Part shown: piece by piece, positions 12,455 through 64,000 of the stretch
Layout: every line of letters begins with the position of its first letter
Position numbering within the stretch: the first letter of the stretch is position 1
From: Verrucomicrobiia bacterium
Lineage (GTDB): Bacteria > Verrucomicrobiota > Verrucomicrobiia > Verrucomicrobiales > DEV007
Assembly (NCBI GenBank): GCA_030425385.1
Contig: JAUIAH010000038.1
Span: forward strand, 1 to 64,000
DNA length: 64,000 nt
Reading direction: 5' to 3'
Position numbers and translations under genes: made by a program
The notes under the pieces: generated by a model
The model's input: the letters and a program-made list of their open reading frames with translations, nothing else
What the model was told of the DNA's origin: nothing
Databases searched by the model: none

Positions 12455-12971
12455 GGTGGACGATCTCCCCGACCCACGTGCGATAGTGGGACCCCGGGAT
12501 CTGAGCCAGAGCGGCCTGAATGCGCTCTCCCTGGTCCTGAATGTGATGAATGTCAGGGATGTCCGTATGACTGATGGCCACATCGAAGAAGGCGACTCCA
12601 CCGTGCCCGAGAAAGGTCTCTGCAGGCTCAGGTTCGAAGCCATGCGCAGTCGCCCAAGCGCTTACCTGGCGGGCCGCTTCGCGGCTCTCGCATCGGACGC
12701 GATGGCGCGAGCGCATCGGGAGAGAGAGATCAGACCCATTTCGGGCGAGGGCCTGCAAACTGGTTTGCAAGAAGGACGCTTGGAGGAAATCGGGCAGCGC
12801 TGGCTTTTCCAACGGCAACTGCTCGCCAGCGTGGACGAATGGGGTCGGAGCCGGCGCGGCCTCCATAGCATCGCCTTGACGGTGGTTTGGAAAAGACAAC
12901 CAGATCGCGATCACCGCACTGCAGGCCACGAGGAGGCCTCGCCAAAGCGCGTGATCCCTATTCGCAATCAT
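12444..12971 (-). CDS. small membrane-anchored protein of unknown function
   Basis: A 175-residue protein with one N-terminal hydrophobic helix (about residues 10-27) and a mostly soluble remainder, so it is probably anchored in the inner membrane facing the periplasm. I recognise no family. The C-terminal half is rich in His and charged residues. The ATG at 12971 is preferred over an in-frame TTG three codons upstream. Its stop overlaps the start of the giant di-heme gene by 11 nt, so the two are almost certainly co-transcribed and translationally coupled. A role in export, assembly or regulation of the giant protein is a guess from that coupling. Confidence 0.65.
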   Translation of the reverse strand: MIANRDHALWRGLLVACSAVIAIWLSFPNHRQGDAMEAAPAPTPFVHAGEQLPLEKPALPDFLQASFLQTSLQALARNGSDLSLPMRSRHRVRCESREAARQVSAWATAHGFEPEPAETFLGHGGVAFFDVAISHTDIPDIHHIQDQGERIQAALAQIPGSHYRTWVGEIVHHAH

Positions 12972-13169
12972 GAGTTCCAAGGAACATTTAAAACATGGAA
13001 ATTCTAGTCGTATTTGTAGAGAACTCTTGGTTATGCGCCAATCATTCTATAATTTGCGATCAATTCAGGAGTTTAAAGCGTCCGGGAAAGAATCAGTAGT
13101 AAGCTGACTGTTCAGAGTGGCGCGGGAGCAGGGTTGCATGAACCCGCCGCCTACTTGAGATTGCCCTTC
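12972..13169. promoter_or_regulatory. divergent intergenic region
   Basis: About 200 bp, clearly AT-richer than its surroundings, between the small membrane protein/giant di-heme operon (minus) and the TPR-like gene (plus). Apart from the promoter-like element noted at 13027-13053, I see no RNA gene or long repeat in it. Confidence 0.5.
13027..13053 (+). promoter_or_regulatory. sigma-70-like promoter element
   Basis: A perfect -10 hexamer TATAAT at 13048-13053 is preceded by a partial -35, TTGGTT at 13027-13032, with a 15-bp spacer (16 if read as CTTGGT). It would transcribe the TPR-like gene at 13170 with a leader of ~110 nt. The spacer is short, so only the -10 is convincing. Confidence 0.35.
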
Positions 13170-16100: not shown

Positions 16101-18152
16101 CAGAAGGAAGATGTTTCCTTCGCGGACCGGAAAGAGGAATCTCCTTTGCAAGCCCTTCGCATGCTTGCTAGGGACCGTCGCGTTGGAGGTGATGCAGAAG
16201 CACGGGTGCGTGAAGCCCTAGCCTTGGCTCAACTTTTGCAAGAACCTGCCCTACAGCCTGCCGTGGTCGATCATCTCTTGGAGTTCTTTTCTGAGAATGT
16301 GCCCGATCACTTGGGCCATAAGTTGGGAAACGTGATCCTCGAACGGGTCCGGCGTTTTCCAGGCAAAGGGAGGGCGCGCTCCACCCAGCCCTATTTGGAC
16401 AATCGCCGGGAAATGGTCTATGGCGCGCGGGTCTTTGATTTGCCAGGACGTATTGCCAAACGCTTGCTCTCGGCGGGACAATTTGAGGCGGGACTGACCG
16501 TGCTTGATGAGCACATGGATCTTGGAGAAATGGCGGAGATGTCAGTGCCAGGACTGGTGTTAAGAGGCGTCGACCTCTTTCGCTTTCGCATGAGTGAGCG
16601 GGAACGTCGCTTCTTGGGGCCCCCATGGCCTTCGTGGTTTCGAGATCTCGGTCGAGGTGCCGCCAGCATTGAATCTGTGAGGAGATTCAGAGGTGGGTGG
16701 GTTGCTGGAATCGATTCAGGGGAGATCGCGAAGTTGGTGCCTCGGCTGAAGAGCCCGCTTCTGCGTGCACAGCTTTGGCATTTGCTAGAAGATGAGGAAA
16801 TGGTGTCCAAGGAGATCGAGCAGTGGCGATCAGCGTCCGCACCGGAGCCCCATCTCCTTCTGGCTTCGGGCTGGCATGCGTTCCACGCAGGTGACGTTGA
16901 AAGAGCCTCGAACGATTTCGCGAGAGCGAGACAGGGGAAGGTGACTCGCCGCTCGGAAGATTGGGAGATTGCCCAAGGCTTGGTTGCCTGTGGACTAGCT
17001 TTGGGGAAGACGTCTGGTGTTCCTTGGGAGCGTGCGCGAAAGGCCGCCTGGCGTGTGGGCCTGGAGCATTTGCAATTGAGGGAGCGCGATGTGTGGCGTT
17101 CGATCATGGAATCCCTGGGGTGGGAGCCCGCCAATGGGTGGCATGTCAGGGTCTTGCCGTCGCAATCGGTTCCGACGCGAGGTCGATTGGTCAATGCGGC
17201 GTTAGTCGACTCGGCGTGGTTGAAGACGGTGGTCCTTGGCGAATGGCCGGGATTCCTTCGTCAGGGAGGCCTGGACGGCGATCGCCGGTTCCAGCGTCAA
17301 TTGGAGCTCCAGGGGGTGAATGGTCCCGATGGCCTGGAAGGAAGGCGATTGGCTGTGGTTGACGACTGGATGGGCAATCGAGACGAAGCGGTGACGCGCT
17401 ATCGCCTTCTGCTAGAAGAGAATCCTCACGACCACCCCGTCCGTGGCCGCTTGGCGATCCTCCTGGCTACGGAAGACCCAGAAGCGGCTTGTGAGTTGTT
17501 GTTAGAGATGCCTTGGCAGCAAGTAGATGAGCTCCTCAAGCACCTGTATCAATCCTTAGGGTGGAGGCGAGAGATGCGCTTAGAGGAGCGCTTTCAACTC
17601 GTAGAGATGGGGCTGATCTACCTTGAGCGCCGCTCCAACGAGCCGGCACCGTGGGTAACGACTTTGCTAGATACCTTAGCGAGTGGGTTGGAAGAGAGGG
17701 GGAGGCCGCCTGTACGCGTGCCTAGCCTGTTTCACACGGATCCTTCGGTACGCATGTCAGACACGAGGTCTCGCCGTGCGCGCGCCCGACGGGATCGGCT
17801 CCATCGGCAATGGAGTGAGTGGGCGGTGAGGGACTTCCCAGCGTTGCGCCCGTGGGCCTTCAAGCATCTCGCCCATTGGATCCCACCGGAGCAGCGGGAG
17901 GGGAAGCGTCTCGCGACGATGGCGATAGAGCTCTTGCTAGGAGCCTTTGATCGAGAGAGTGAGCATCGATTTGGAAGTGCGGTGGGATTGTCTCGGGCCG
18001 GGGCGCATCAAGTGCTGGAGGACTACCTCCTGGCGCACGCCAAACGTCGACATTCGTGGGCTTGGCTTGAGAAAGCGTATCTCTCGGAATTGCGTCGCCG
18101 TGGTCGTGTGGCTGAAATCCCATCGTTGCGTGAGCGCTGGGAGAATCTTTGA
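13170..18152 (+). CDS. very large exported TPR-like helical-repeat protein
   Basis: A 1660-residue protein with a signal-peptide-like start (MNRGILGCLAIAMGG to about residue 21). The rest is almost wholly helical repeat. Many ~34-residue TPR-like units are visible from residue ~25 (AQLWYEKALAEEAGG, then LKRAALLSP) through ~900 (LALAQLAEDRG, LRQAVALSP), and repeats resume near the C-terminus (RYRLLLEENPHDHPVRGRLAILL). Such proteins are scaffolds for multiprotein assembly; no catalytic domain is visible. The ATG at 13170 is chosen because it gives the signal sequence; a TTG at 13134 preceded by GGGAG is the alternative. It is divergent from the giant di-heme operon and monocistronic, since the next gene is convergent. 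It may serve an outer-membrane or periplasmic complex. No close family recognised. Confidence 0.75.
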   Translation: MNRGILGCLAIAMGGVPSLGADVLSLRRALAQDVENAQLWYEKALAEEAGGRLRVSQNNLKRAALLSPSDVLYKQIRRKQIAWHLRQDETSAVVRLCQDLFQRFPQDDMLRRELMEQCLAEGLVPEVVAFLRTWSEQTASEEIKQRCLGELGELLEMMGHRAESLKAFVRAMVLADPEQGFAAELYRRLSKGFRLEGDLLGLAAFVDERRREYPNALAWAREEAALLVELREEGKAVAAYEALFEKHPDAREEREAYIRALVDWRKSEAVLVQTQILAERFPEDAELALLWAKRALAVGDEASRVEAVRAYLSRSNASEEAYQRVIRWLLAKGMEADARAMTGAYRTKHSASLEGVLMEARFLHEQGEREEALTLWRMTGEGEDRDVVRRVAREMALHGEHGAVVETLQPLADAAEPAWDVVRDACVSAIELGQWSMATPWIRTLVRLSDSPSALEEAIQLGLEIGSGQTLGKHLLEELHTADSLATAERWLLARLLDQRGDRDAAANVLERLEAEEALGVHQWIALHRSRGHWDEAARVLEGSDLQDWELLAALHRRAGDDEGYFRTLETWRAHRPDDPAPWHMEAARRLERQEASRAVEVLREGVVSCEEAYGLKDALVTLLADEGYFEEAMNLSSELYEEASSVEEGLSQARRLVRLADAEGRERSVRAWFEELHQESPELPLPRLSLAVYHRWFGDEEAVKASLAEFERMAGEDVEVLLALAQLAEDRGMLHQRETWLRQAVALSPEPRTWGRLGRALAGTEEGRTILERGILQSEKEFMRSGAYSLGHLAIAEGWKTVVRALEEDPDRLARDYRFAYSHAVALFQSGETTAARRSFLRLLTVERERRDRPLRHQADIAKPIWDPSADRWSLLRAYHQRDLQISRENAYVGLHPPNSLQELRADCLHFLRYLGKEDPKSMTRAISACGIRDASLFMLDPRQPWPSDVMKRYADLDRAELARLRSRVDGRGEHAQKEDVSFADRKEESPLQALRMLARDRRVGGDAEARVREALALAQLLQEPALQPAVVDHLLEFFSENVPDHLGHKLGNVILERVRRFPGKGRARSTQPYLDNRREMVYGARVFDLPGRIAKRLLSAGQFEAGLTVLDEHMDLGEMAEMSVPGLVLRGVDLFRFRMSERERRFLGPPWPSWFRDLGRGAASIESVRRFRGGWVAGIDSGEIAKLVPRLKSPLLRAQLWHLLEDEEMVSKEIEQWRSASAPEPHLLLASGWHAFHAGDVERASNDFARARQGKVTRRSEDWEIAQGLVACGLALGKTSGVPWERARKAAWRVGLEHLQLRERDVWRSIMESLGWEPANGWHVRVLPSQSVPTRGRLVNAALVDSAWLKTVVLGEWPGFLRQGGLDGDRRFQRQLELQGVNGPDGLEGRRLAVVDDWMGNRDEAVTRYRLLLEENPHDHPVRGRLAILLATEDPEAACELLLEMPWQQVDELLKHLYQSLGWRREMRLEERFQLVEMGLIYLERRSNEPAPWVTTLLDTLASGLEERGRPPVRVPSLFHTDPSVRMSDTRSRRARARRDRLHRQWSEWAVRDFPALRPWAFKHLAHWIPPEQREGKRLATMAIELLLGAFDRESEHRFGSAVGLSRAGAHQVLEDYLLAHAKRRHSWAWLEKAYLSELRRRGRVAEIPSLRERWENL

Positions 18153-18170
18153 GAGGGATGTTAGGAAGAG

Positions 18171-19127
18171 TCACGCTTGCCCTGACAAATAGGCGTAGTG
18201 GGCTTCCTGAGAGCCCTGGACAACCGCATCCGTGATGGAGGCACCGGGGGCGACGACGCCTCCAGGCCAGACCACACTGCGCTCCACCTTGGCGCCCGCA
18301 CCGATCTCGGCGCGCGGACCGACGACGGTGCCGGGATCGATGGTCGCGCCAGGGGCGATTTCTGCCCCCGGGTGAATGGCGTGCCATGGGGCGTTGGATA
18401 CCTTGTCGTAAGCGGGGAAATCGCTTTGGGGGATCTCGCGATGCACCTGGCGATACGTTTCCGCGTCGCCCAGATCCCACCAATGCCCCCGGTCCTCCAC
18501 ATAGCCTCCGAGGCCAGCGCCTTCACGGATCATTTGCAGAAAGATGGGAATCACGGACTCCTTCTTGCCGGGTGTGAGGCGCTCGACGAATCGAGGTTCC
18601 ACGACGTAGATTCCGGTAAACTGATAGGATGCAGTCGTGGGGTTGCCTATCATGCCGCGGATGTCGGCCACGCGTTCCAGTCCCGGCTCGGTTCCCAAGC
18701 CAATGTGGAGGCCTGGACCCTCGCTTCGAAGGAGCAGCGTGACCTCATTGCCTGCCGTTTCGTGTTGTTCTAGCAAAGGTGCTAAGGGGATGTCCGCGAG
18801 GATATCGCCATTGTAGACGATGAACCGCTCATCCCCTAGCAAATCGGCGATATTGGCAATGCCGCCTGCCGTCTCTAAGAGGATGGGTTCGTGCCGAAAG
18901 TGAAGGGGAAGGCCTCCATAGCTTCCATCGGGGAAAGCTGCCTCGTAGGCTTCAGAATAATGGTGCGTGTTCACGATCCAGCCATCGATCCCTGACAAAG
19001 ACAGCAAATGGTCAAAGGCATAGGTGATCAAGGGGCGATGAAAGACCGGCACCATGGGTTTCGGTAGCCAATCGGTCAGGGGCCGGAGGCGAGTGCCGAG
19101 ACCGGCACCGAGAACAAAAGCTTTCAT
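18171..19127 (-). CDS. sugar-1-phosphate nucleotidyltransferase with C-terminal hexapeptide repeats
   Basis: A 318-residue cytoplasmic enzyme. The N-terminal NTP-transferase domain has GAGLGTRLRPLTDWLPKPM (nucleotide-binding loop and Lys) at residues ~8-26 and the metal site YNGDIL near 120. The last ~70 residues are left-handed beta-helix hexapeptide repeats (IHPGAEIAPGATIDPG). It should join a nucleoside triphosphate to a sugar-1-phosphate for envelope or polysaccharide synthesis. The overall form resembles mannose-1-phosphate guanylyltransferases and the MurU group, but the sequence alone does not settle the sugar or nucleotide. It lies 23 nt downstream of the MBL hydrolase on the same strand. 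Convergent with the TPR-like gene. Confidence 0.88.
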   Translation of the reverse strand: MKAFVLGAGLGTRLRPLTDWLPKPMVPVFHRPLITYAFDHLLSLSGIDGWIVNTHHYSEAYEAAFPDGSYGGLPLHFRHEPILLETAGGIANIADLLGDERFIVYNGDILADIPLAPLLEQHETAGNEVTLLLRSEGPGLHIGLGTEPGLERVADIRGMIGNPTTASYQFTGIYVVEPRFVERLTPGKKESVIPIFLQMIREGAGLGGYVEDRGHWWDLGDAETYRQVHREIPQSDFPAYDKVSNAPWHAIHPGAEIAPGATIDPGTVVGPRAEIGAGAKVERSVVWPGGVVAPGASITDAVVQGSQEAHYAYLSGQA

Positions 19128-19150
19128 AGGATGAGAAGCGTTGTCAGTGA

Positions 19151-20095
19151 CTAGAACATTTCCACCTGTTCATAGGCACGGGTGTCCGCCGCCATGGTCG
19201 TCTGCTTTGGCGGAGTCACCGCCTCAGGTGGGGGCACTGTTTCCACAACGGGCACCGCGTTGAGAGGCGCGGGTTCGGATGGTTCGGATGGCCGCGGCGG
19301 GAGCCAGCCCCGTCGTGCAGCAAGACAGGTGGTGGGCTCGGCTTGTTGCGCACAAAGGACGGAGACCTGAGATTGTCCCTTCGCGGTGATCGCTTCCTTG
19401 ATGGTGCGAATAGCGAGATCGGGCTCGTTACAGTCCTGACTGAGGTGACCGAGAATCACGCGGTGGAGGTGTTCATCCGCGACCTCGCCTACCAACGCAG
19501 CCGTCTGCGCATTCGACAAGTGTCCGTGCCGTGAGAGAATGCGCTGCTTGATCGACCACGGGCGCTTCGTGTCATTCTGTAAGAGCACCCCGTCGTAGTT
19601 GGCTTCAACAAAGATGGTATTCATGCCGCGCATGTGATTGCGCATCAGGTTGGTGACGTAGCCGACATCGCTAAGAATTCCGATGGCACTCTCGGGATCG
19701 CGCAGGGCAAAACCCATCGGTTCGGTGGCGTCGTGTGCGACTGGGAACGTCTGCACCTGAATGTCACCAATCATGAATTTCCCGCCGGTGGGCACAATGC
19801 GCCACGTCTTGGGCTCCTTAAGAGGGCCAGTCACCATGACCTCACGGGTAGAGGCATTGCTATAAAGCGGCACTTTCACCGACCGACAAAAGACGTCCAG
19901 CCCGCGGACGTGGTCACCATGCTCGTGGGTGATGAGGATCCCATCAAGAGTGTCAGGCGCTACCCCAACGGCTTCGAGGCGTCGATTCAGCTGGCGCGCA
20001 CTCAGACCAGCATCGATCAGCACACGCGTGGTGTCCGTGAAGATCACGGCACTATTGCCACTGCTACCGCTGCCCAAGACGCTGATTCGCAACAT
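19151..20095 (-). CDS. MBL-fold metallohydrolase, YycJ/WalJ-like
   Basis: A 314-residue cytoplasmic metallo-beta-lactamase-fold protein. It starts LRISVLGSGSSGNSAVI, carries the metal motif THEHGDH near residues 56-62, and has later metal ligands in VAHDATEPMGF and the HLSNAQTA / LGHLSQDCNEP segments. This arrangement is characteristic of YycJ/WalJ, linked to DNA metabolism (5'-exonuclease-like activity in the family) and to the WalRK region in Firmicutes. The last ~50 residues (RPSEPSEPAPLN onward) are a Pro/Glu-rich low-complexity tail beyond the usual family end. It sits between the response regulator gene upstream (99 nt away) and the nucleotidyltransferase gene downstream. Confidence 0.85.
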   Translation of the reverse strand: MLRISVLGSGSSGNSAVIFTDTTRVLIDAGLSARQLNRRLEAVGVAPDTLDGILITHEHGDHVRGLDVFCRSVKVPLYSNASTREVMVTGPLKEPKTWRIVPTGGKFMIGDIQVQTFPVAHDATEPMGFALRDPESAIGILSDVGYVTNLMRNHMRGMNTIFVEANYDGVLLQNDTKRPWSIKQRILSRHGHLSNAQTAALVGEVADEHLHRVILGHLSQDCNEPDLAIRTIKEAITAKGQSQVSVLCAQQAEPTTCLAARRGWLPPRPSEPSEPAPLNAVPVVETVPPPEAVTPPKQTTMAADTRAYEQVEMF

Positions 20096-20144
20096 TCCCT
20101 ATGGCATAAGACAACGGCCTCCCGCTGTCCATCAGCATCCCCGG

Positions 20145-20165
20145 ATCGCTCTCTTCTTGAGCGAT
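20145..20165. other. 7-bp perfect inverted repeat upstream of the MBL hydrolase gene
   Basis: ATCGCTC at 20145-20151 pairs with GAGCGAT at 20159-20165 across a 7-nt loop (TCTTCTT), about 50 nt upstream of the MBL hydrolase start. Neither strand has a T-run after the stem, so it does not look like an intrinsic terminator. It could be an operator or a leader hairpin. Confidence 0.35.
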
Positions 20166-20194
20166 AAAAACTTTACAAACTTTAGGGGGTGGCC

Positions 20195-20851
20195 TTAGAA
20201 CGGCAACATCTGACCGAGCCGAGTGTTCTCTAACACATCCACGCCCGCGGCACTCTTGAAGATGAAGAGACCGACCAGCACCAGAATGCCAAGGATGAAC
20301 ATGATCCCGGCGCCGACCATGGTGGCTGCCATGGCAGTGCCGCAGAGATCCCAGGCGCTCTGGGCCATGGAATGAAGCCGACGACTGAGATGGGGCACGG
20401 AGTGCAGCTTGGTGTGCAGTTCCTGATTCTCCTTCTCAATCTCTTCCGACTCGACGAGGCGAGAGTGTTCAGCGAGTCCAAGTTCCACGGCGTTCCGGAT
20501 CTCGTCCATGGAGGACGGCTTGACCAAGAACTTGAGGACATCGCCTTCGTTGATGGCGCGTAGAAAGACATCGGTCTCCGCGTGACCAGTGAGCAGAATG
20601 CGCTGGGTCTTGGGACGAACGGTGCGCATCCGACTGAGGAAATCGAGCCCTTTCTCACCCGGCATGTCGTGGTCACAGAGAACAACCTGCACGTCGCGAT
20701 CTTGAATGATCGATTCCGCTTCCTTGGTCGACTCAGCCGTGAAGACCTCGTATTCACGGGTCAACAAGGTGCTCAAGTAAGACAACAACGGACGTTCGTC
20801 TTCCACCACGAGCACGCGGTTCTTGGGAGTTTCAGGCACCATGGAGCGCAT
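20195..20851 (-). CDS. response regulator with coiled coil and C-terminal membrane helix
   Basis: A 218-residue protein. Residues ~11-130 are a complete CheY-like receiver: acidic pocket E17-D18-E19, phospho-acceptor D60 in the DHDMPG segment, LLTGHAE for the conserved Thr, and FLVKPSS for the Lys. A charged, probably coiled-coil linker follows (~137-160), then a strong hydrophobic helix (~172-200, MAATMVGAGIMFILGILVLVGLFIF) and a short tail. There is no DNA-binding or enzymatic output domain. A receiver anchored to the membrane by its C-terminus is unusual; it may act as a phosphate sink, a localisation factor, or a regulator of a membrane partner. No histidine kinase is adjacent. It lies 70 nt downstream of mnmA. 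Confidence 0.85.
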   Translation of the reverse strand: MRSMVPETPKNRVLVVEDERPLLSYLSTLLTREYEVFTAESTKEAESIIQDRDVQVVLCDHDMPGEKGLDFLSRMRTVRPKTQRILLTGHAETDVFLRAINEGDVLKFLVKPSSMDEIRNAVELGLAEHSRLVESEEIEKENQELHTKLHSVPHLSRRLHSMAQSAWDLCGTAMAATMVGAGIMFILGILVLVGLFIFKSAAGVDVLENTRLGQMLPF

Positions 20852-20921
20852 GATGCTATTATGATAATTCTAGCGGATATGGCAAATGAATTATTCTGAA
20901 AACGTCGACTCTTTGGAAATC

Positions 20922-22025
20922 CTAACTGACTGATTCACGTGTATAGTGGATTTCCTGAAAGACCCCCCCTCCGAGCAGTTCATTTCCTCGATAGAACGCA
21001 CAAATCTGTCCAGGGGTGAGAGCACGTTGCGCGTCGTTGAAACGCATTTCTGCGATTCCGTTCTCGAATCGCTCCAGCTCGAAGGGCACCGCGGGGGTGC
21101 GATAGCGCGGTTGGGCCAACAATTCGGTATCGCCCGCGGCAAAAGGCTGGTTGACGAAACTCACATCGGTCACTGTGCACGCCGAAGCATACAGGCGAGG
21201 TGTCTCGGGTTCGTCGAAACCAACCACCAATTCATTCGTGGCCTCCCGTTTCTCCACAACGACGTAGGCCTTCCGATAAGTGTTCGAAGCCACCCCGATT
21301 CCACGCCGCTGGCCCAGCGTGTAGAGGTGTAGTCCATCATGCTTGCCGACCACTGCGCCTTCGGTAGTGACGATCGTCCCCGGATTCTTCGGCACGAAGG
21401 CATCGAGGAAATCACTCATCTTGACTTCGCCAATGAAACAGATGCCCTGGCTGTCCTTCTTCTTGGCATTCGGCAGTTGAAAGCGCTCCGCCAGGGCGCG
21501 GACGTCGGGCTTGGGGAGATGGCCAATGGGGAAGAGCGCCTGCGCCGCCTGCTCCTGCTGCAGGAGGGCGAGGAAATACGTCTGATCTTTGTTAGGATCG
21601 AATCCCCGCAGGATGCTCGTGCTCCCATCTGCACGCTGCTGCAATTGGGCATAGTGACCCGTGGCGACTTTCTCGAAACCTTCTGCCAGGGCGTAATCGC
21701 GAAACACGCCAAACTTCATTTCTCGATTGCACATCACATCGGGGTTGGGCGTGATGCCGCGCTGATAGCCTTCTAGCAAGTAGTCGACCACGCGGTCGCG
21801 ATAGTCCTGCATGAGATTCACGATGCGGAACTCGATTCCTAACGTTTCCGCTACCGCACGGGCATCGTGGATGTCCTCTTCCCAGGGACAATGGCCCACG
21901 ATATTCTCCTCATTGATCCAGTTCTTCATGTAGGCCCCGACGACCTCATGCCCTTGATCAACTAACAAAGCGGCAGCAGCGCTGCTATCCACTCCGCCAG
22001 AAAGTGCCGCGAGAATCTTACCCAT
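20922..22025 (-). CDS. mnmA: tRNA-specific 2-thiouridylase MnmA
   Basis: A 367-residue cytoplasmic enzyme that 2-thiolates U34 of tRNA-Lys, -Glu and -Gln using persulfide sulfur from the IscS/Tus-type relay. The PP-loop SGGVDSS is at residues 9-15. The two catalytic cysteines are C99 (in NPDVMCNREMKFG) and C196 (in GICFIGE). The length and the TP-N-P-D-V-x-C-N block match the family throughout. The ATG at 22025 overlaps the end of the upstream VOC gene by 8 nt, implying translational coupling. No feature looks degraded. Confidence 0.97.
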   Translation of the reverse strand: MGKILAALSGGVDSSAAAALLVDQGHEVVGAYMKNWINEENIVGHCPWEEDIHDARAVAETLGIEFRIVNLMQDYRDRVVDYLLEGYQRGITPNPDVMCNREMKFGVFRDYALAEGFEKVATGHYAQLQQRADGSTSILRGFDPNKDQTYFLALLQQEQAAQALFPIGHLPKPDVRALAERFQLPNAKKKDSQGICFIGEVKMSDFLDAFVPKNPGTIVTTEGAVVGKHDGLHLYTLGQRRGIGVASNTYRKAYVVVEKREATNELVVGFDEPETPRLYASACTVTDVSFVNQPFAAGDTELLAQPRYRTPAVPFELERFENGIAEMRFNDAQRALTPGQICAFYRGNELLGGGVFQEIHYTRESVS

Positions 22026-30881: not shown

Positions 30882-31523
30882 ATGGCGGCGTTTGCACAGT
30901 TTCTCCGCGACCTCTTTCAAACGGGGCAGGTGACCTTGCCCGTGTGGGGGCAGGGGGAGATGCCCGATTTCACCTCTGCCCGGGCGCAGGAACTGATGAG
31001 GGAACGGGATGGGATGGTCCGCCTGGCCATGGCGGGAACGGCACCGGCCCTCGACATGGACGCGGCCCTGACGGGGGCCACCTGGCTCTTTCTGGCCTGT
31101 CGCGCTTTCATCGATCGGTCGCGCCCGATCGACTATTGGCCCGAGTTGGAGTGGAAACCCGTCGACGGCTCGCCTGCGTTGGTCTATTCCGTGGATCTGA
31201 CCCTGTCATTTCTCCCAGATCTTTGGCTGCAAGCGCGTCCACAAGCTGAAGATGATGCCCTCATGGGGCGCCTCCGGCAATTGGCGCAGGCATGGCCGCT
31301 CTCGGCGGTTGGCATCCCTGATGCGGCAGCACCTTGGGATCGATTTGATTCCTGGTGGGCGGATCGGAGTCTTCGACAAACCTACGTGGATCGTGTCTTG
31401 GCGCGCGATGCTGGCGATGCGATCCAGCACCCACAAGTGGTCGAGCAGTTGAAGACGGCTTTGGGGGAATGTGGGGATTCCTTGGCCGGCGCCGCGGTGC
31501 AAGAAAGGTTGGCACACACCTGA
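30882..31523 (+). CDS. first gene of MoxR-vWA-beta-propeller ternary system (bpX0-like, tentative)
   Basis: A 213-residue cytoplasmic protein with no signal peptide or membrane helix. It has Trp-rich motifs (VTLPVWGQ, IDYWPELEW, WDRFDSWWADR) and a stretch (YSVDLTLSFLPDLWLQARPQ) resembling a short beta-rich core. I recognise no enzyme motif. The call rests on position and family memory: it opens a five-gene operon of MoxR ATPase, vWA and beta-propeller proteins, where a small protein of this kind (called bpX0 in comparative work) is expected. The ATG at 30882 has GAGGGAG upstream; the open frame extends back to 30756 inside the sulfatase gene and is not used. It ends 27 nt before the MoxR start. 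Confidence 0.6.
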   Translation: MAAFAQFLRDLFQTGQVTLPVWGQGEMPDFTSARAQELMRERDGMVRLAMAGTAPALDMDAALTGATWLFLACRAFIDRSRPIDYWPELEWKPVDGSPALVYSVDLTLSFLPDLWLQARPQAEDDALMGRLRQLAQAWPLSAVGIPDAAAPWDRFDSWWADRSLRQTYVDRVLARDAGDAIQHPQVVEQLKTALGECGDSLAGAAVQERLAHT

Positions 31524-31550
31524 TTTCTTGGCAGTTTCCAACCAGTTCTT

Positions 31551-32690
31551 ATGCTAGCAGAAACTTTAGAGATCGGCCGCCGCATGCGCGAATCCATCTT
31601 GGAACCAATGAAGGAGACATTCATTGGGAAAGATGTTATCATTGATTTGTTAGGCGTGTGCCTGGCGGGAGGCGAGAATCTCTTTATCCTGGGACCGCCG
31701 GGTACTGCGAAGAGCGCTCTCGTCCACGAGTTGGGACGGCGATTGGAAGGGGAGACCTTTGAATATCTCCTCACGCGATTCACCGAGCCGAATGAACTCT
31801 TTGGGCCCTTCGATATTCGCAAGCTCCGAGAGGGTATTCTGGAGACCAACACCGAGGGGATGCTGCCGGAGGCTTCCCTTGTCTTCCTTGATGAATTGCT
31901 CAATGCCAACAGCGCGATTCTTAACAGTTTACTCACAGTGCTGAATGAGCGTGTCTTGCGACGTGGACGGCAGACCTATGCGTTGCCCTTGCTCAGTGTC
32001 ATCGGAGCGAGCAATCAGTTGCCGCAGGAAGAATCCTTGCAGGCCCTCTTTGATCGCTTCCTCCTTCGCGTGCGGAGTGACAACGTCGAGGCGGATGCAC
32101 TTGAAAGTGTGCTAGAGTCTGGATGGAAATTGGAGCAGGGTTCGGATGCGAACCATGGACGGGTGCGTGTGGACGAGATTCGCGCTCTGCAGAAGGCCTT
32201 GCCCACGGTCACGCTCGCGCCTGTGCGTGATGCCTATGTGGAGGTGGTCCGGCGGATCCGCGTGGCAGGCCTTTCGCTGTCCGACCGGCGTGCGGTGAAA
32301 TTGCAACGGCTGATCGCTGCCAGTGCCCTCTTGTGCGGGCGCGAGGAAGCCGTGACCTCAGATCTCTGGGTTCTGCGTCACATCTGGGATTTGGAAGAAC
32401 AACGCGAGATCCTGGCAGGAATCGTGAATGAGGCGATCAGTGAGACCACGCGCGAAGGCGCGGAGGAACATCCGCAAGGGCGTGACCACGAACCTCCTGA
32501 CGCTGAAATGCTAGGACGTGACTTGCATCGCTTGTCCGAAGACTGGGCAACGCTTTCGGAGTCTGAGCGCGCAGGAGCTCGTGATCGTCTGAGCCTGATC
32601 GCGACACGCTCGGAATGGGTGACGAATGAAGAACAGCGTGCGGCGCTGCGCGTGCGGATCGATGCGATGTGGGAGACCATGGGTGCATGA
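31551..32690 (+). CDS. MoxR-family AAA+ ATPase (RavA-like) of the ternary system
   Basis: A 379-residue AAA+ ATPase. Walker A GPPGTAKSALVHEL is near 45-58; Walker B LVFLDELLNANSAILNSLL near 105-123; sensor 1 in VIGASNQLP; the DRFLLRV segment carries the arginine-finger region. The Walker-B insert (NANSAILNSLLTVLNER) is typical of the RavA branch. MoxR ATPases are chaperone-like machines that remodel vWA-containing partners, which fits the vWA protein two genes downstream. The C-terminal ~90 residues are helical and charged. Its stop overlaps the next ATG by 4 nt. The ATG at 31551 lacks an obvious Shine-Dalgarno site. This is the energy-consuming core of the operon. Confidence 0.93.
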   Translation: MLAETLEIGRRMRESILEPMKETFIGKDVIIDLLGVCLAGGENLFILGPPGTAKSALVHELGRRLEGETFEYLLTRFTEPNELFGPFDIRKLREGILETNTEGMLPEASLVFLDELLNANSAILNSLLTVLNERVLRRGRQTYALPLLSVIGASNQLPQEESLQALFDRFLLRVRSDNVEADALESVLESGWKLEQGSDANHGRVRVDEIRALQKALPTVTLAPVRDAYVEVVRRIRVAGLSLSDRRAVKLQRLIAASALLCGREEAVTSDLWVLRHIWDLEEQREILAGIVNEAISETTREGAEEHPQGRDHEPPDAEMLGRDLHRLSEDWATLSESERAGARDRLSLIATRSEWVTNEEQRAALRVRIDAMWETMGA

Positions 32691-33427
32691 GGGTGATGCG
32701 ATTGCGATCGGGGGTGACCCCAAGAGCGCTCGCGCAGGTGCGTGCCGCGCCCGGGGTGGAATGGGCGCAAGATGAGCAAGGCGATGTCTGGCTGCGGGCC
32801 GAAAGCTTAGAAGCCTGTGAGGGTCTGCCGTTCATGGCGCAGTATGTCTGTGAGGACAGTGACTCTCTTGTGCCATTGGGATGTCGATTGCCTGTAGCGC
32901 GCCTGCCTAAGGTATTGGAATGGCGCTCCCTTGAGGGCTGGCTGCGGCTCGTCTTCCCATTGGCGGCTCTGCCAGGGGAATTGAATGACAGCGACTCTAT
33001 CCCCTTGCCGCTGGTTCGAGACCATGAAGAACGCCCACCCAATGTTCTCCTCACCACGCTCGAACCGCTCTTGAGTTACGTCGAGGAGGCAGCTGCCGTG
33101 CGCTTGGGCCGATTGCGATTCGCTGTGTCAGGAGACGGCGAAGCCGTCGTCCTGGGAGAGCCTTTACTGCCGATCCGTGGCCAACGCTATCATTTGCATG
33201 AATGCCTCGCGCTCCCGATAGGGCAGGTGCCAGAGTTCACGCTAACTGCTGAGGCACTGAGACAATCCTTTGGTTTGGCGAAAGCGGAATGGGCGCTCCT
33301 GAGAGGAGATACCTTTGATAGGCTCGGGGACGATGATTTCATTCCCCTGACGCGAAGTGCGGTGCGACTGACCTACGAACGGCTGCACATGCAGGACGCA
33401 CTAGCCGTGGAGGAGGAGGGCGGATGA
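32687..33427 (+). CDS. ternary-system accessory protein (bpX1-like, tentative)
   Basis: A 246-residue cytoplasmic protein, rich in Leu and acidic residues, with a regular alternation of short hydrophobic strands (RLRSGVTPRAL, VEWAQDEQGDVWLRA, VVLGEPLLPIRGQRYHL) and no transmembrane helix. No catalytic motif is visible. It starts at the ATG overlapping the MoxR stop by 4 nt (ATGA), although the frame is open 18 nt further upstream, and overlaps the next gene by 4 nt. Position and size match one of the conserved uncharacterised subunits of MoxR-vWA-propeller systems; the bpX1 name is from memory and uncertain. Confidence 0.6.
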   Translation: MRVMRLRSGVTPRALAQVRAAPGVEWAQDEQGDVWLRAESLEACEGLPFMAQYVCEDSDSLVPLGCRLPVARLPKVLEWRSLEGWLRLVFPLAALPGELNDSDSIPLPLVRDHEERPPNVLLTTLEPLLSYVEEAAAVRLGRLRFAVSGDGEAVVLGEPLLPIRGQRYHLHECLALPIGQVPEFTLTAEALRQSFGLAKAEWALLRGDTFDRLGDDDFIPLTRSAVRLTYERLHMQDALAVEEEGG

Positions 33428-35904
33428 CGAGCGTCGTCGAGACCCATCCCATCCATTACCTGACACCGCCAGTTCCCGGGTTCTGGCGGTGGGAGCAGGG
33501 CTCTGTGGTCTTCGCCTCTGGAGAAACCCTGACATTTCGCGAGGAATTGCTGCAACTGATAGTCTCTTTGCAGCCGATGGGATTGCCGCCGATGGAGTCG
33601 CTGCTCTTGTTCCTAGCCGCCTCACGAGATCCTTGGAGTGGAAGCCTGTTAGGTGCGTGGAAAGCGAGTATGAGGGAGCTGGATGAGGAATGGCTCGCTC
33701 GGTTGCTCCCGGACAGGTGGCTGGATACAGTGAGTCGTGAATTGGCGAAGGTGCATGGATTGAGTCCTTCGTGGAGGCGTTCGCTGCGTCACAAAGGAGT
33801 GGTGGCGGAGGTGTGTTTCGAAGACTCTGAGACGCTCTCGACACCCGCACACGCGCAGGCGGTGGTGAATCTCTTGGAGATGGGTTTCGTTCCCCCAGAA
33901 CCTACCCCCACATGTGATGCCGAAGAGGCAGCGCGGGGCTTTGTGGTGGGAATTCGCCCTTTGCTAGAAGGATTTCCCGAGTTGGAGGAGGCGCGTTTGG
34001 ACACACGGATGCGCACTGGGCTAGATGCCGTTCCGGGAAAAGCTGCGTTGGCTGAGCAGGCGCTTGCCACCCAAGTGCGCTCCCTCCTAGATGCCTTGGA
34101 AGGAGATCCCGAGTGGGCTGGGCTCGCGCGCTTGGCGCGTCACTTGATGGCCTCTGTCCATGTCCCTCGTGCCCTCGGTGATCTTGAAGAGTTGCCGCTG
34201 GGAGGCTTCAGCGACCTCACCAATCGAGGATCTTTGGATCGTTTGTTAGTGAGCGAGCTGGCACAGGACGATCTCGTTCTCTCGGCGAAGCTGGCCTTGA
34301 ATGAAGCGTTGTTTCTCCGGAGGGAATCGCCTCCCAAGACTCCCCAGATGCGGAGAGTTCTCCTCTTGGACAATGGGATTCGCCTCTGGGGAATCCCACG
34401 TCTCTTTGCGGCGGCCGTGGCCTTGGCTATGGAGGCGATGACGGATCGCGGGACGCGTGTCGACGTCTATGTGCCGGTGGAGAATCAGCAACTTTGTCAG
34501 GTGACCTTGCACACGTATGAAGGATTGGTCCAAGCGCTGAGCCCGCTGCATCCCCATGCCCATCCCGGCAATGCCCTGCTCGAATTGGTGCGGCGGGTGG
34601 GAGAGCAGAAGCGCGCGGGCGAGGCCGAGATCTTCCTTCTCACGCACGAGGATGTCCTGTCCGATCCAGCGTTCCGGTCCGTCATTGACTTGCTACAGGA
34701 ATCTTTCTTCGTCGGAACGGTGAATCGTGAGGGACGCTATCGCTTGCACCATGTCCATCCTTTGGGGACACGCCAACTGAAGGAGGCGCGCCTCTCTCTT
34801 GACGCCGTGATGGGCGGGGAACGCGATGCCGCGGCGCTGCGACGCACCCGTGTGCCCGTCCATTTGCCCTCGATCTTTCACGAGCATCCGTTTCCCATTC
34901 GGCTGCCTGTTAGGGTGATGCGCGATCGGACCGTCTTCACGTGTGGAGACGGTATCTTCAAGACCACGCGGGATGGACGTCTCTTGCATTTCGACGACCA
35001 AGAGCGGGGAGGAATCCAACTCTGCGACCATTTGCCCTCCGGGCATGCGGTTCCCGTGGTGGAAGTGCAAGGATTGGCAGACGGGAGGCGAGTGACGGCT
35101 ACTTGGGAGAAACGGCTGCTGCAAGTGAACTTGGTCCACACGGGTAGTGGGCTGTTTGATACGGTTCGCATCGCGGTGAAGCAGCCACCGATTCAGTTGG
35201 TGATCGTGCACCAACAATGCTTGGTCGTGCATCAGCGGCGGTTGACCATGCACGCGCTTGATTCCGGCACGGCCTTCGCTGAGGAGGCTTTGCCCGGCCG
35301 CGTGGAACGTTGCTTCGGAGATCTCTTGCTCATCGGAGCGGAATGGCGACGGGCATCGATCGATGGCATGCGTCCTGTGTTAGAGCGCATTGATCAGGAC
35401 CGCGTCTTGGAGTCTTCACAAATGGAAGAGTATCGACTCAAATCAATCGGAGCTCTCCGCAAGCACTTTCGTGGGATCGCGGTCAAGGGGTCCAAGATCA
35501 TCCTGTTCCCACGCAGAGCGGGAGCCTGCCTCACTCTCAGGTATACTCAGGATGCGCAGGTAATTTGTCTTCAATGGTACGAGACCGATGCCCCAATGGT
35601 AAGGTTCCGTGAAATTGCCGGTCCTGAGGGATCGCGCTTGCGATTGCAGGAAGCCTCCTGGGATGATGGGAGCCGTGTCATTCTGGATAGTAGAGGGCTC
35701 TTACATTTCGACAGTGCATCGCCTGAGGTCGATGAGTTCACGATCATCTTGTCCGATCAGGCACCTGTCTCGGCTTGGTTAGGGGCCTCGGAGGGAGGAA
35801 TGGGAGATCCTTATTTCTTTGAGGATCCACCCGTGGTGAGCGCGGAGAGGGTGCAGGCGTTGCTCACGGCATTCGCGCTTCACGTGGAGGGGGCGCGATG
35901 TTAG
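33424..35904 (+). CDS. vWA-like and beta-propeller protein of the ternary system
   Basis: An 826-residue cytoplasmic protein. After ~300 helical residues, residues ~310-460 look like a von Willebrand A domain: RRVLLLDNGIRLWG begins the first strand, a long helix follows, then VDVYVPVENQ and EIFLLTHEDVLSD. The metal-site motif DxSxS reads D316-N-G-I-R320, so the MIDAS is degenerate and may not bind metal. Residues ~480-800 show repeated short strands (VFTCGDGIFKTTRDGRLLHFDDQ, QLVIVHQQCLVVHQRRLTMHALD, ILDSRGLLHFDS) consistent with a beta-propeller. It is probably the partner or substrate of the MoxR ATPase. It overlaps the upstream gene by 4 nt and the downstream gene by 7 nt. Confidence 0.72.
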   Translation: MTSVVETHPIHYLTPPVPGFWRWEQGSVVFASGETLTFREELLQLIVSLQPMGLPPMESLLLFLAASRDPWSGSLLGAWKASMRELDEEWLARLLPDRWLDTVSRELAKVHGLSPSWRRSLRHKGVVAEVCFEDSETLSTPAHAQAVVNLLEMGFVPPEPTPTCDAEEAARGFVVGIRPLLEGFPELEEARLDTRMRTGLDAVPGKAALAEQALATQVRSLLDALEGDPEWAGLARLARHLMASVHVPRALGDLEELPLGGFSDLTNRGSLDRLLVSELAQDDLVLSAKLALNEALFLRRESPPKTPQMRRVLLLDNGIRLWGIPRLFAAAVALAMEAMTDRGTRVDVYVPVENQQLCQVTLHTYEGLVQALSPLHPHAHPGNALLELVRRVGEQKRAGEAEIFLLTHEDVLSDPAFRSVIDLLQESFFVGTVNREGRYRLHHVHPLGTRQLKEARLSLDAVMGGERDAAALRRTRVPVHLPSIFHEHPFPIRLPVRVMRDRTVFTCGDGIFKTTRDGRLLHFDDQERGGIQLCDHLPSGHAVPVVEVQGLADGRRVTATWEKRLLQVNLVHTGSGLFDTVRIAVKQPPIQLVIVHQQCLVVHQRRLTMHALDSGTAFAEEALPGRVERCFGDLLLIGAEWRRASIDGMRPVLERIDQDRVLESSQMEEYRLKSIGALRKHFRGIAVKGSKIILFPRRAGACLTLRYTQDAQVICLQWYETDAPMVRFREIAGPEGSRLRLQEASWDDGSRVILDSRGLLHFDSASPEVDEFTIILSDQAPVSAWLGASEGGMGDPYFFEDPPVVSAERVQALLTAFALHVEGARC

Positions 35905-38669
35905 AGTCCCCGCAAGAGATTGATGTGAGGCTTCGTCCGGGGAAGGTGGCGGGTGCGGCCGAGGCCTGGCTCTTGCCGGGATCCACACCTGCAGAGTGGT
36001 TGCCCATTCTGCGCGATTGGCCTGAGGGTGGCGGTAAAGAAGGGGTAGGCTTACTGCTACCCTTGTCCATGCGTGATCGCACGCCCTCTGGCATGCTGTG
36101 GATGGGCTCATCGGTCGGACCAGCAACGGCGCGGGCACAAGCGTATCGCCAATTTGGGAGGAAACTTTGGCTCCCTTGTGATGCCCAGTTGGATCCTCCC
36201 ATGAGTGCGGCCGAGGTCGATGCCCTCTTGCCACACGACGAAGCCATCTTTCATCCTGGCATTGGCCTTGTGGGTTTTGATAGTGCAGATCGTGTGTCGT
36301 TGAAAGATCTAATCTCCGTGCCGTTGCCCAGCGGGCGTGCCTTCAGTTCGGCCCATCCAGGGGTGGGTCTCCAGGATCGCCTCTATGCGGTCACGGCTGC
36401 GCCGGTAGAACGGGTGTCCCTTCTTCTTGAGGATGTGCGAAGTGAGATGGGGCAACGTGACGCCTCTGAGTTGCCAGCCACTCCGGAGGAAGCGCGGGAG
36501 AAAGGGGTGGCTCATTGGCGACGGCGCATGAAAGAGCGCTTTCTCAAGGCGGTGGGCAAGTTGGCCAAGGGGCGTGAGGGCGGATCCAAGGAGAAGGCCG
36601 CCTGGCGCCATCGTCTTGAGACGTGGACAGAAGAACGGGTGCAGGCTCTCCGGCGCGATCAAGAGCGCGAACTGAAGCGGTTGCTTCACCTCATGAAGAC
36701 GGATCCTGACGAAGGACTCAAATTTGCGCTCCCGTTAGGGGGAGGAAGCGGAGGCGGGTCCGACATGAACGCTGGTTCGGAATTGCCGGAGCGGGATCCC
36801 GATTTCCGCTTGAATGACGGGCCCGCAAAGGGAGGCAGCGGGGGGGCTCCGTGGGTGGTCGACTGGCAAAGACACTACGAGCTCTCACGCCAGTATCGGG
36901 AAGCTGCCAATCGGGAGTTGCGACTCGCGCGTTTCCGGCGCGCCGCTTACATCTATGCTGAACTCCTCAAGGACTATCGAGCAGCGGCCAATGCCTTGCG
37001 CCAGGGGCTGCACTACCGAGAAGCCTCCGTTCTCTATCTCAAGCATCTGGGAGATCCGCTGGAAGGAGCGCGCTGCTTGCGCGAGGGTGGTTTCCTTCAC
37101 GAGGCAATTCCCATCTTTGAGCGCAAGAAGCAGTTCGAGACGGTGGCAAAGCTTTACGAGGAGCTGGGCGACCGACATGAGGCCGAGCGCTTCTATCGCT
37201 TGGCGGTGTCGCGGGCGATCGCTCATGGCAACACCATTCAAGCAGCGAACTTGTTAGAGAAACGCCTGAAAGCCCTTGAGGAAGCGGCGCGCCTCTTACA
37301 GAAGAGCTGGCCGCGCAGTGCGGATGCAGTGGCCTGCCTCCGGTATGAGTTGGCCTTGTATGAGCGCCATGGATCCCTAGAGCACTTAGGCAAACGGATG
37401 GATCAGGTGACCGCCGATCATCCACCAAGTCGTGCGGTGGGGCTCATGGAAGTGCTCGTTCGCCTCGCTCACCAGTGCCCTGATCGCGAGACGCGCGCGC
37501 ATGCAGAGAGGTGTAGCTTCGTCATCGCGGGGCGCTGGTTGGGGTCACCCAAGTTTGAAGACTCTCGCAGTCTTCTTGAGCAGGTGCGCCTTCTCGTGCC
37601 GAGTGATCGCCTCATGCGTCGTGATACTCAACGCTTCCAGCAGCAGATGGAGGCGGCCGCTGAGCGGCGTCAGCAGACGGCTGTGGCTTCGGACGCCGAT
37701 GTGGTAGCGGTGTTAGGCAGTGTGCCCATGCCAAGTTGGGTTCAATGGGCCGTGGTGGAGCCTCGTGGACGGTCAGGCTTTTATGCGTTGGGCACGGCGG
37801 CACAGGGGGTGACCTTGATGCGTTACCGATGGGAGGGAGCCTTTCAAACGCAGTTGCTTCCTCACCTGGTCGCGACTCGTGGCGTGTCTAGATGCCGCTT
37901 GGCAGCGGCTCACGAAGCCCTTCCCGAAGTGTTGAGCATTCTTGGCACGACTCGCCTTGAGGCACCACCCATGCCGCCAGCGGATGCCTTTGGGGCAGAG
38001 ATGCGGGTGGAGAATCCTTCCTGGGTGGAGGCCGAAGGCTTTCTCGGAATGACTTACGGAGGCAATGGTGTCGCCTGGGTGCTCCAACAGCAGGGCGATG
38101 AGGAAGATTTGTTAGTCCTATCATCGTTCTCATCGATGGGAGATCTCATTGCCACCCATACGGTGCGGTTGCCCTTCGGCGCCTCGGAGCAGCACGTCTA
38201 CGCGCCGATTCCCATGCAGTGTTTTCAGGAACAAGTTCTCTTCATCTACGGGCGCCACCTCATCCGCTTCTATCGCGACCGGATTGAATCGCTGGAACTC
38301 GCAGATACTCCGTTGCGAATTCAAGCGACGAGGTCCGGCCGCGCCTTGTTGGCGCTGTGTTATGAGTCGGGTGTGGAAGTGTTGGCAGCGGGAGAGCATT
38401 CCTGGGGACAACGCGAATCCTTGGAGTTGGATGGAAGAGATACCAGGGTCACGTTCACACGCACGGGCGATGTCCTGGCACTTTCACCTAAGCGGCTGGA
38501 CGTCCTGATCCGCGAGCGCCAAGGTTACGCTTTCAAGCATACCGAACCGCTCCCCCAACTGAGCGATCCGTTGGGCATCTTTCCCACGGACACGCCAAAC
38601 CGCTATGCTCTCGTGGGGCAACGCGATGTCTCCATGGTTCGTGTGAAGCCATGGGGAATGGGGAGGTAG
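35898..38669 (+). CDS. TPR-like and beta-propeller protein of the ternary system (bpX3-like, tentative)
   Basis: A 923-residue cytoplasmic protein. An N-terminal ~280-residue mixed region leads to a Gly/Ser-rich linker (~278-290). Residues ~325-560 are helical repeats of TPR/SEL1-like appearance (AAYIYAELLKDYRAAANAL, EASVLYLKHLGDPLEGARCL, ETVAKLYEELGDRHEAERFY). The last ~350 residues show propeller-like strands (GFYALGTAAQGVTLMRYRW, VLFIYGRHLIRFYRDR, RALLALCYESGVEVLAAGE, RYALVGQRDVSMVRV). It looks like a scaffold or sensor arm for the complex. The ATG at 35898 overlaps the upstream stop by 7 nt. It ends the operon, facing a convergent sulfatase gene 21 nt away. Confidence 0.65.
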   Translation: MLESPQEIDVRLRPGKVAGAAEAWLLPGSTPAEWLPILRDWPEGGGKEGVGLLLPLSMRDRTPSGMLWMGSSVGPATARAQAYRQFGRKLWLPCDAQLDPPMSAAEVDALLPHDEAIFHPGIGLVGFDSADRVSLKDLISVPLPSGRAFSSAHPGVGLQDRLYAVTAAPVERVSLLLEDVRSEMGQRDASELPATPEEAREKGVAHWRRRMKERFLKAVGKLAKGREGGSKEKAAWRHRLETWTEERVQALRRDQERELKRLLHLMKTDPDEGLKFALPLGGGSGGGSDMNAGSELPERDPDFRLNDGPAKGGSGGAPWVVDWQRHYELSRQYREAANRELRLARFRRAAYIYAELLKDYRAAANALRQGLHYREASVLYLKHLGDPLEGARCLREGGFLHEAIPIFERKKQFETVAKLYEELGDRHEAERFYRLAVSRAIAHGNTIQAANLLEKRLKALEEAARLLQKSWPRSADAVACLRYELALYERHGSLEHLGKRMDQVTADHPPSRAVGLMEVLVRLAHQCPDRETRAHAERCSFVIAGRWLGSPKFEDSRSLLEQVRLLVPSDRLMRRDTQRFQQQMEAAAERRQQTAVASDADVVAVLGSVPMPSWVQWAVVEPRGRSGFYALGTAAQGVTLMRYRWEGAFQTQLLPHLVATRGVSRCRLAAAHEALPEVLSILGTTRLEAPPMPPADAFGAEMRVENPSWVEAEGFLGMTYGGNGVAWVLQQQGDEEDLLVLSSFSSMGDLIATHTVRLPFGASEQHVYAPIPMQCFQEQVLFIYGRHLIRFYRDRIESLELADTPLRIQATRSGRALLALCYESGVEVLAAGEHSWGQRESLELDGRDTRVTFTRTGDVLALSPKRLDVLIRERQGYAFKHTEPLPQLSDPLGIFPTDTPNRYALVGQRDVSMVRVKPWGMGR

Positions 38670-63223: not shown

Positions 63224-64000
63224 CTAGGTCACCGGCGTATTCAAAAGCACATCTTCCAAAGCCACCCGCACGTTCTGCGCCCCGCCGCCATCGCGCCCTC
63301 CCAAGCGATGCTGCAAGACTGGAATCGCCACCTGTTTCACATCGTCAGGATGCACCGCTTGGTGATTCTCCAAGAACGCCACTGCTTGCGCCGCCCGCAT
63401 CAGGGCAATCGAGGCACGCGCCGACAACCCGCCACCCAACGACTTGTGCTGCCTAGCCGCCTCACAAAGATGTGCAATGTAGGCGCAGACATTCTCATTG
63501 ACCATGATGTTAGCCGTTTGCGACTGCAGCAAGGTCAACTCATCACCCGTCAGGATGGGCGCATGCTCCACCTGATCCGGCGCATTCTGAGCATGCAACT
63601 GGAGGATGTTCGTCTGGGTAGCCACATCTGGGAGGCGCATATTGATCGCCACCAGAAAGCGGTCCAACTGCGGCTCCGGCAATGGGAACGTCCCCGCCGC
63701 ATACTGATTGTTCTGTGTCGCCAGCACCATGAAGGGGGACTGCAACGGCCGCGTCACTCCATCGACGGATACCTGACCCTCGTTCATGCACTCCAACAAG
63801 GCACTCTGAATGCGCGGACTCGTCCGATTGATCTCATCGGCCAGCAAAATGTTGCTAAAGACAGGGCCCTGCACGAACTGAAATTGCCCCGTGCCCTGGT
63901 GGAACATCGAGTAGCCCAGGATATCGGCCGGCAGGAGGTCGGGCGTGAACTGCACACGCTTAAAGCTCCCTGCAATGGATTGCGCCAGCGTCTTAGCCAG
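63224..64000 (-). CDS. MoxR-family AAA+ ATPase (partial, N-terminus beyond right edge)
   Basis: 258 codons of the C-terminal two-thirds are present; the frame stays open to base 64000 (the last residues read LAKTLAQSIAGSFKR), so the Walker A loop lies just off the window. Visible: the RVQFTPDLLPADILGYSMF block, Walker B ILLADEINRTSPRIQSALLECMNEGQV, sensor 1 MVLATQNNQY, arginine-finger LPEPQLDRFLV, and the C-terminal lid. This is the classical MoxR branch, distinct from the RavA-like one at 31551. First visible gene of the MoxR-DUF58-TgpA operon. Confidence 0.93.
   Translation of the reverse strand: MAKTLAQSIAGSFKRVQFTPDLLPADILGYSMFHQGTGQFQFVQGPVFSNILLADEINRTSPRIQSALLECMNEGQVSVDGVTRPLQSPFMVLATQNNQYAAGTFPLPEPQLDRFLVAINMRLPDVATQTNILQLHAQNAPDQVEHAPILTGDELTLLQSQTANIMVNENVCAYIAHLCEAARQHKSLGGGLSARASIALMRAAQAVAFLENHQAVHPDDVKQVAIPVLQHRLGGRDGGGAQNVRVALEDVLLNTPVT

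Follow-up and report, generated by a model that had tools for sequence, protein, structure and literature searches.

An intact five-gene operon of the MoxR-vWA-beta-propeller (bpX) type in a Verrucomicrobiota genome, with a conserved candidate finger and a degenerate vWA metal site

The beta-propeller MoxR-vWA ternary systems, for which the bpX families of Pfam were defined, were described by Kaur et al. in 2020 (PMC7159879). A mechanism based on a finger and a twisting movement has been described for NorD, the vWA partner of the MoxR ATPase NorQ (PMC13036017, PMC9976466), while the Arc2 genes of P. aeruginosa (PA4317-23) confer partial protection from ColA, an injected toxin of the colicin type (PMC8926400). 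Here we analyse a stretch of 64,000 nt from contig JAUIAH010000038.1 of a Verrucomicrobiota genome of 8.0 Mb (referred to below as the window; 58% GC), and we show that it carries an operon which is almost certainly a complete, intact MoxR-vWA-beta-propeller (bpX) ternary system of the known kind.

The operon consists of five intact open reading frames (ORFs) on the plus strand at 30882-38669, located between two sulfatase genes of the minus strand. Genes 1 and 2 are separated by a gap of 27 nt, and genes 2-5 overlap by 4, 4 and 7 nt, the ATG of gene 3 overlapping the stop codon of the MoxR gene by 4 nt. This five-gene set, with its overlaps of 4-7 nt, had been delimited correctly to the base in the original prediction, a reading made by a model from the letters of the window. 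The host genome contains a single copy of the operon. We looked for a foreign composition, and both the GC content of the operon and its tetranucleotide use are ordinary for the window. The five genes are:

30882..31523, plus strand: gene 1, bpX4 protein, 213 aa (PF19920, E=1.3e-35, 123 bits)
31551..32690, plus strand: gene 2, bpMoxR AAA+ ATPase, 379 aa (PF20030, E=1.2e-93, 312 bits)
32687..33427, plus strand: gene 3, bpX2 protein, ~246 aa (PF19918, E=7.1e-49, 167 bits)
33424..35904, plus strand: gene 4, vWA component, 826 aa (PF19915 or bpX0, E=6.1e-9; PF19917 or bpX1, E=1.8e-11)
35898..38669, plus strand: gene 5, third component, 923 aa (PF19919 or bpX3, E=1.5e-25, 90 bits)

The identification rests on agreement between several kinds of evidence. 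A search against the bpX and MoxR families, which the original prediction had proposed as a check, matched every protein to a Pfam family, the two bpX domains of gene 4 scoring 44 and 37 bits. The Pfam cut-offs for the five proteins are 23.6-27 bits (27 for bpX4). Since the five proteins far exceed these cut-offs and the same gene order is found in dozens of genomes from several phyla, chance can be excluded. The operon also combines a bpMoxR with the GXXXTAKS motif, a divergent vWA protein with a propeller, a TPR-propeller third component and the additional linked genes bpX4 and bpX2. Pfam families, fold models and conserved gene order thus agree on the MoxR-vWA-beta-propeller identity first suggested from the letters, with bpX families matched by the small and the propeller proteins alike and with vWA and propeller folds predicted. 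The two small proteins, which had been described as unrecognised, belong in fact to the recognised families bpX4 (PF19920) and bpX2 (PF19918).

We considered, because of the patchy distribution described below, whether the operon could be a decaying or non-functional remnant. No evidence in favour of this was found, and the five open frames with their tight overlaps, the intact ATPase motifs and the full-length alignment to homologues make it hardly credible.

The ATPase encoded by gene 2 carries Walker A GPPGTAKS at residues 48-55, Walker B VFLDE (111), GASN (152), LFDRF (166) and SDRR (244), so that Walker B, sensor and arginine motifs are all intact. Its Walker A fits the GXXXTAKS P-loop that Kaur et al. 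named for bpMoxR (PMC7159879). The bpMoxR cut-off of 27 bits is loose, being exceeded in 12 of 14 control genomes, E. coli included; gene 2 reaches 312 bits, and the runner-up in the same genome only 65 bits. The nearest solved structure in a PDB profile search is RavA (E=1.3e-40), and gene 2 fails the RavA equivalog NF010054 of NCBIfam (161 bits, cut-off 681). Profile searches returned no PDB relative for bpX4 and bpX2. A common origin of bpX2 and bpX3 was also considered and is unsupported (hhalign probability 25%).

Gene 4 begins with the helical bpX0 domain, followed by a conserved pre-vWA segment, a degenerate vWA domain, propeller-like repeats and a C-terminal bpX1 domain. Its AlphaFold2 model (65 homologues; mean predicted local distance difference test score, pLDDT, 87.6) contains a Rossmann-like alpha/beta region at residues 310-456 and beta repeats from residue 503. 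No ordinary vWA was recognised in gene 4 by Pfam; the vWA assignment stands because residues 236-485 match an E. coli ViaA/phage VWA profile (E=5.2e-10, 173 columns, the pre-vWA segment included). Residues ~493-672 match propeller chains with Z=10-11, and the strands at 503-656 of the model may be read as four blades, as Kaur et al. describe (PMC7159879). Two short elements of gene 4 are central to what follows:

34183..34332, plus strand: candidate finger, gene 4 codons 254-303, GGFSDLTNRGSLDRLLVSELAQDD...ALFLRRE (from conservation and the ViaA alignment)
34369..34392, plus strand: degenerate metal ion-dependent adhesion site (MIDAS) DNGIRLWG, gene 4 codons 316-323 (register from the ViaA profile alignment)

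Segment 254-303 is the most conserved part of the system outside the ATPase. Across 65 homologues, 28 of its 50 columns are at least 80% identical. The corresponding counts are 23 of 177 for the vWA core, 5 of 261 for the propeller region of gene 4 and 118 of 214 for the ATPase domain (12 sequences). The segment directly precedes the vWA core, pairs in the profile alignment with the region before the vWA domain of E. coli ViaA and is poorly ordered (low pLDDT) in the isolated model of gene 4. In NorD, the finger that enters the pore comprises residues 403-448 (PMC13036017), and the Thr and the last Asp of the MIDAS are residues 534 and 562 (PMC9976466). By ViaA spacing, the DxSxS of NorD should lie near residue 467, right after the finger, and a finger just before the expected DxSxS would therefore give the bpX segment 254-303 the same position. 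On this positional analogy with NorD, we regard the segment as a candidate finger.

The metal site of gene 4 departs from the classical MIDAS (DxSxS ... T ... D). The motif DNGIRLWG aligns where ViaA reads DTSGSM: D316, W322 and G323 are invariant in all 65 homologues, 64 of which have Arg or Lys at residue 320 and only 7 of which have Ser at residue 318. Position 408, where the last Asp is expected, is His in gene 4 and Asp in 10 of the 65 homologues. Kaur et al. reported that some of these vWA domains are without one or both aspartates and noted nothing further (PMC7159879). Two details are absent from the papers cited here, namely the ATPase-level conservation of the pre-vWA segment and the Arg/Lys that replaces a metal-binding Ser of the vWA. 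The degenerate site probably does not bind metal.

The third component, gene 5, is composed of an alpha/beta bpX3 domain (~10-140), a helical coil (204-275), TPR-like helices (323-596) and a propeller (603-916 by one delimitation, 601-921 by another), as seen in an AlphaFold2 model built with 52 homologues (mean pLDDT 83.6). The propeller superposes on the Utp21 WD domain (4nsx) with Z=22.6 and a root-mean-square deviation of 3.2 over 279 aa, and the TPR/WD40 profile matches are IFT144 and WDR19. The Foldseek and VIA lists for the gene 4 and gene 5 models are filled by propellers and say little on the bpX3, TPR and vWA parts.

The membrane-spanning N-terminal segment described for this group (PMC7159879) is not present in gene 5, whose highest 19-residue hydropathy (1.48, at residue 602) falls within a strand. 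As stated in the original prediction, this copy is cytoplasmic throughout, none of the five proteins having a membrane-helix-like hydrophobic stretch outside folded domains. Among the 52 aligned gene 5 homologues, 15 reach a hydropathy of at least 1.6 near residues 198-253, between the bpX3 and TPR regions, suggesting that some homologues may be membrane-anchored, unlike gene 5 itself. We do not treat the membrane segment as defining, because only a minority of the operons with this gene order have it.

We then examined how the operon is distributed. A scan with the bpMoxR alignment yielded 80 loci, mainly from Planctomycetota, Bacteroidota and Verrucomicrobiota. The order of the components is constant, and they are found as follows: bpX4 in 72 loci, bpMoxR in 80, bpX2 in 78, the vWA component in 75 and bpX3 in 68. 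Most missing components are explained by contig ends. The absence of bpX4 beside the ATPase is genuine in L030 (4151), L031 (9986) and L032 (1772), where the operons start with bpMoxR. Its place in these three loci is taken by a gene for an SMC-like protein or a 3-keto-disaccharide hydrolase.

Two further loci, L082:11836-13245 and L093:12078-13487, encode a vWA protein of 469 aa without propeller or bpX1, in which the SELA part of the segment is kept and Leu occupies the MIDAS +4 position of Arg/Lys. In both, the vWA gene is followed by a full bpX3-TPR-propeller gene that retains its propeller. In these loci the description of the vWA component as strictly propeller-bearing does not hold, and the contact between the propellers of genes 4 and 5, which follows a suggestion of Kaur et al. 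(PMC7159879), is therefore not obligatory. Thus, bpX4 is dispensable, and the vWA propeller is dispensable in two loci.

The occurrence of the operon is patchy: bpX2 is present in 11 of the 75 genomes from its family and in 4 of 388 genomes sampled across the phylum. The relatives whose ATPase is 70-76% identical are labelled Verrucomicrobiales and Verrucomicrobiaceae. Within the genus, identity is 70-76% for MoxR, 41-44% for bpX2, 53-54% for gene 4 and 56% for gene 5; for comparison, it is 79-81% for MnmA, 86-87% for ParA and 70-85% for the flanking sulfatases. The operon changes faster than these neighbours, its non-ATPase parts being 41-56% identical. The least conserved parts are the propeller regions of genes 4 and 5, with a median identity of 15%. 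In three genomes of the same genus, the orthologues of the flanking sulfatases, sought for an empty-site comparison, lie on separate short contigs.

A complete operon is also carried by a 245-kb plasmid of Hymenobacter yonginensis (L193:13308-21144; NZ_CP115397.1, 117336-125172), with a site-specific integrase ~8 kb away. A phage-borne copy was sought as well: the scan of viral contigs with bpX2 found no relative, and that with bpMoxR found only distant MoxR proteins (29-44% identity). The system could, alternatively, protect against the toxins of rival bacteria and not against phages, with Arc2 as a possible distant relative. The genes arc2A-G are defensive, specific for ColA and spread through Pseudomonadaceae and Xanthomonadaceae (PMC8926400), and there is phyletic overlap, as Kaur et al. 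place beta-propeller ternary systems in Pseudomonas and Xanthomonas (PMC7159879). Against this, the scan of a plasmid collection yielded the Hymenobacter relative alone. In the published naming, moreover, the AAA-domain ATPase PA4322 comes sixth among the seven genes, a position different from that in bpX operons. We consider protection against rival toxins improbable.

To find an effector gene, we clustered the 737 flanking ORFs of the 80 loci, and neighbours recurred only within close relatives, for example in Chitinophaga. The first reading had seen no nuclease, protease or pore among the five proteins; this is correct, and it extends to the whole subfamily, in which no extra gene recurs in the 80 loci. 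Since the operon normally includes no separate effector gene, the output has to come from the five proteins themselves or from another part of the genome.

Based on these results and on the behaviour of NorQD and ViaA, we consider it likely that the MoxR ATPase remodels the vWA protein through a finger, a mechanism with which the conserved finger-like segment is consistent. The bpMoxR protein would assemble as an AAA+ hexamer, and the vWA protein would dock on the ring and insert segment 254-303 into its pore, in the way that the finger of NorD enters NorQ. Hydrolysis of ATP would then twist the vWA domain against the helical bpX0 N-terminus, and the force would be transmitted to anything bound by the vWA domain and its propeller. 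The most probable cargo would be the third component of the system itself (bpX3-TPR-propeller), for which bpX2 and bpX4 would serve as adaptors. Recognition of a ligand that is foreign or variable would most likely fall to the two fast-evolving propellers; the first reading had likewise supposed that the propeller and TPR proteins recognise a trigger. The output would be the assembly or reshaping of a protein complex (containment or sequestration), with no enzyme involved.

The vWA domain probably grips its partner by a basic residue and not by Mg2+, because Arg/Lys is conserved where the metal-binding Ser is expected. A more speculative extension, which we think unlikely to hold as a whole, is that this built-in charge replaces the metal of the vWA domain and makes the system an ATP-driven salt-bridge switch, that is, an effector-free conflict or assembly machine. 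If this were true, a metal-free vWA domain would hold the partner, and the output would be a reshaped propeller/TPR scaffold without an enzymatic effector.

Several observations weigh against a finger-driven conflict system. No defence or toxin family recurred among 122 flanking proteins scanned with Pfam and PADLOC, none of the five proteins matched PADLOC-DB 2.0.0 (best mad8, E=0.048, for the ATPase alone), and the neighbours of the operon in the window are metabolic, with no defence-island setting. The scans of viral contigs gave no phage-borne copy either. The MoxR tree largely tracks phyla, and the Chitinophaga operons share conserved surroundings, both of which suit vertical inheritance. 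The finger-in-pore contact rests on analogy, the gene 4 propeller match with Z=11 spans only 147 residues and does not show ring closure, and no experiments on the bpX subfamily were found in literature searches.

Part of this evidence would suit an accessory maturation chaperone like NorQ-NorD, CbbQ-CbbO or RavA-ViaA, unrelated to invaders, which would remodel one host enzyme or a respiratory or membrane complex, with the propeller and TPR proteins as scaffolds for the client. The biochemically understood MoxR-vWA pairs in the papers cited here all work in this way, and the missing effector, the missing defence-island context and the phylum-tracking MoxR tree point in the same direction, as does the hydrophobic segment near 198-253 of some gene 5 homologues, which suggests a membrane client there. 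In nor, cbb and cox operons, client genes adjoin the MoxR-vWA genes, unlike in bpX loci, where no client gene recurs in the neighbourhood. A chaperone of this kind also fits poorly with an occurrence that is patchy even within one family and with propellers, the presumed recognition parts, that change fastest. We judge both the chaperone role and the scaffold function of the propellers that goes with it to be rather unlikely.

Taken as a whole, a bpX ternary system with finger-driven vWA remodelling and a scaffold output is probably the best explanation of the data. A role in biological conflict, also the proposal of the source paper (PMC7159879), is plausible though somewhat doubtful; it is supported by the patchy occurrence, the low identity of the non-ATPase parts within the genus, the fast-evolving propellers and the one plasmid copy. 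Systems of the bpX type occur widely among the Planctomycetota, Verrucomicrobiota and Bacteroidota, and the question of how they act is narrowed here to a proposed motor handle of 50 residues, an Arg/Lys that would stand in for the metal and the propellers as likely recognition surfaces.

Some further observations were made in the window and in related loci. An unrelated second MoxR-type ATPase starts at the end of the window (63224-64000, minus strand; 38 bits to bpMoxR), and two very long ORFs are found at 5291-12643 (minus strand, 2450 aa) and 13134-18152 (plus strand, 1672 aa). Three genomes of the same genus (G051-G053) have ~150-200 sulfatase-like matches each, pointing to the degradation of sulfated polysaccharides. 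At L037:9962-11197, a bpMoxR ~60% identical to gene 2 occurs without bpX partners and is possibly an orphan; its neighbours are a Memo-like protein, an FtsX-type permease and a P-type ATPase. In three Niastella loci (L096, L103 and L107, ~17000-21000), a cluster of SWIM-zinc-finger, DUF5691 and second MoxR genes directly follows the operon, placing two MoxR systems side by side. Finally, in a metagenome-assembled genome of Thermoanaerobaculia (Acidobacteriota), an ORF of 1185 aa with FG-GAP/UnbV-ASPIC domains lies between bpX2 and the vWA gene (L074:3465-7019). The MoxR of this locus groups with Bacteroidota sequences, which indicates transfer or misbinning.

Among the known systems, Arc2 resembles the operon by description, in that a MoxR ATPase and a protein with a von Willebrand domain are encoded there alongside uncharacterised proteins (PMC8926400), but it has seven genes and its ATPase gene stands at a different position. 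RavA-ViaA of E. coli provides the nearest solved ATPase structure, and ViaA has a pre-vWA segment and a vWA domain; in contrast to gene 4, ViaA has an intact DTSGSM and no propeller, and the system has no bpX genes. The iron-insertion chaperone NorQ-NorD shares the type of MoxR hexamer and a VWA protein with a separate N-terminal domain, and the gene 4 segment just N-terminal of the MIDAS appears to match the position of the NorD finger (PMC13036017, PMC9976466). NorD, however, keeps DxSxS-T-D and ends with its VWA domain, whereas gene 4 has a degenerate site followed by propeller repeats and bpX1, and no nor-like client gene lies near the bpX operon.

The closest match is to the systems of Kaur et al. 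(PMC7159879). The operon differs from them in that its third component is without the membrane-spanning segment of the group, and in that its most variable parts are the propellers and not the N-terminal bpX3 domain. On the other hand, it shares with them the absence of an effector module, a host among the Verrucomicrobia, the extra alpha and alpha+beta genes, the TPR-propeller third component, the divergent vWA domain with propeller-like repeats, the GXXXTAKS motif and all of the component families.

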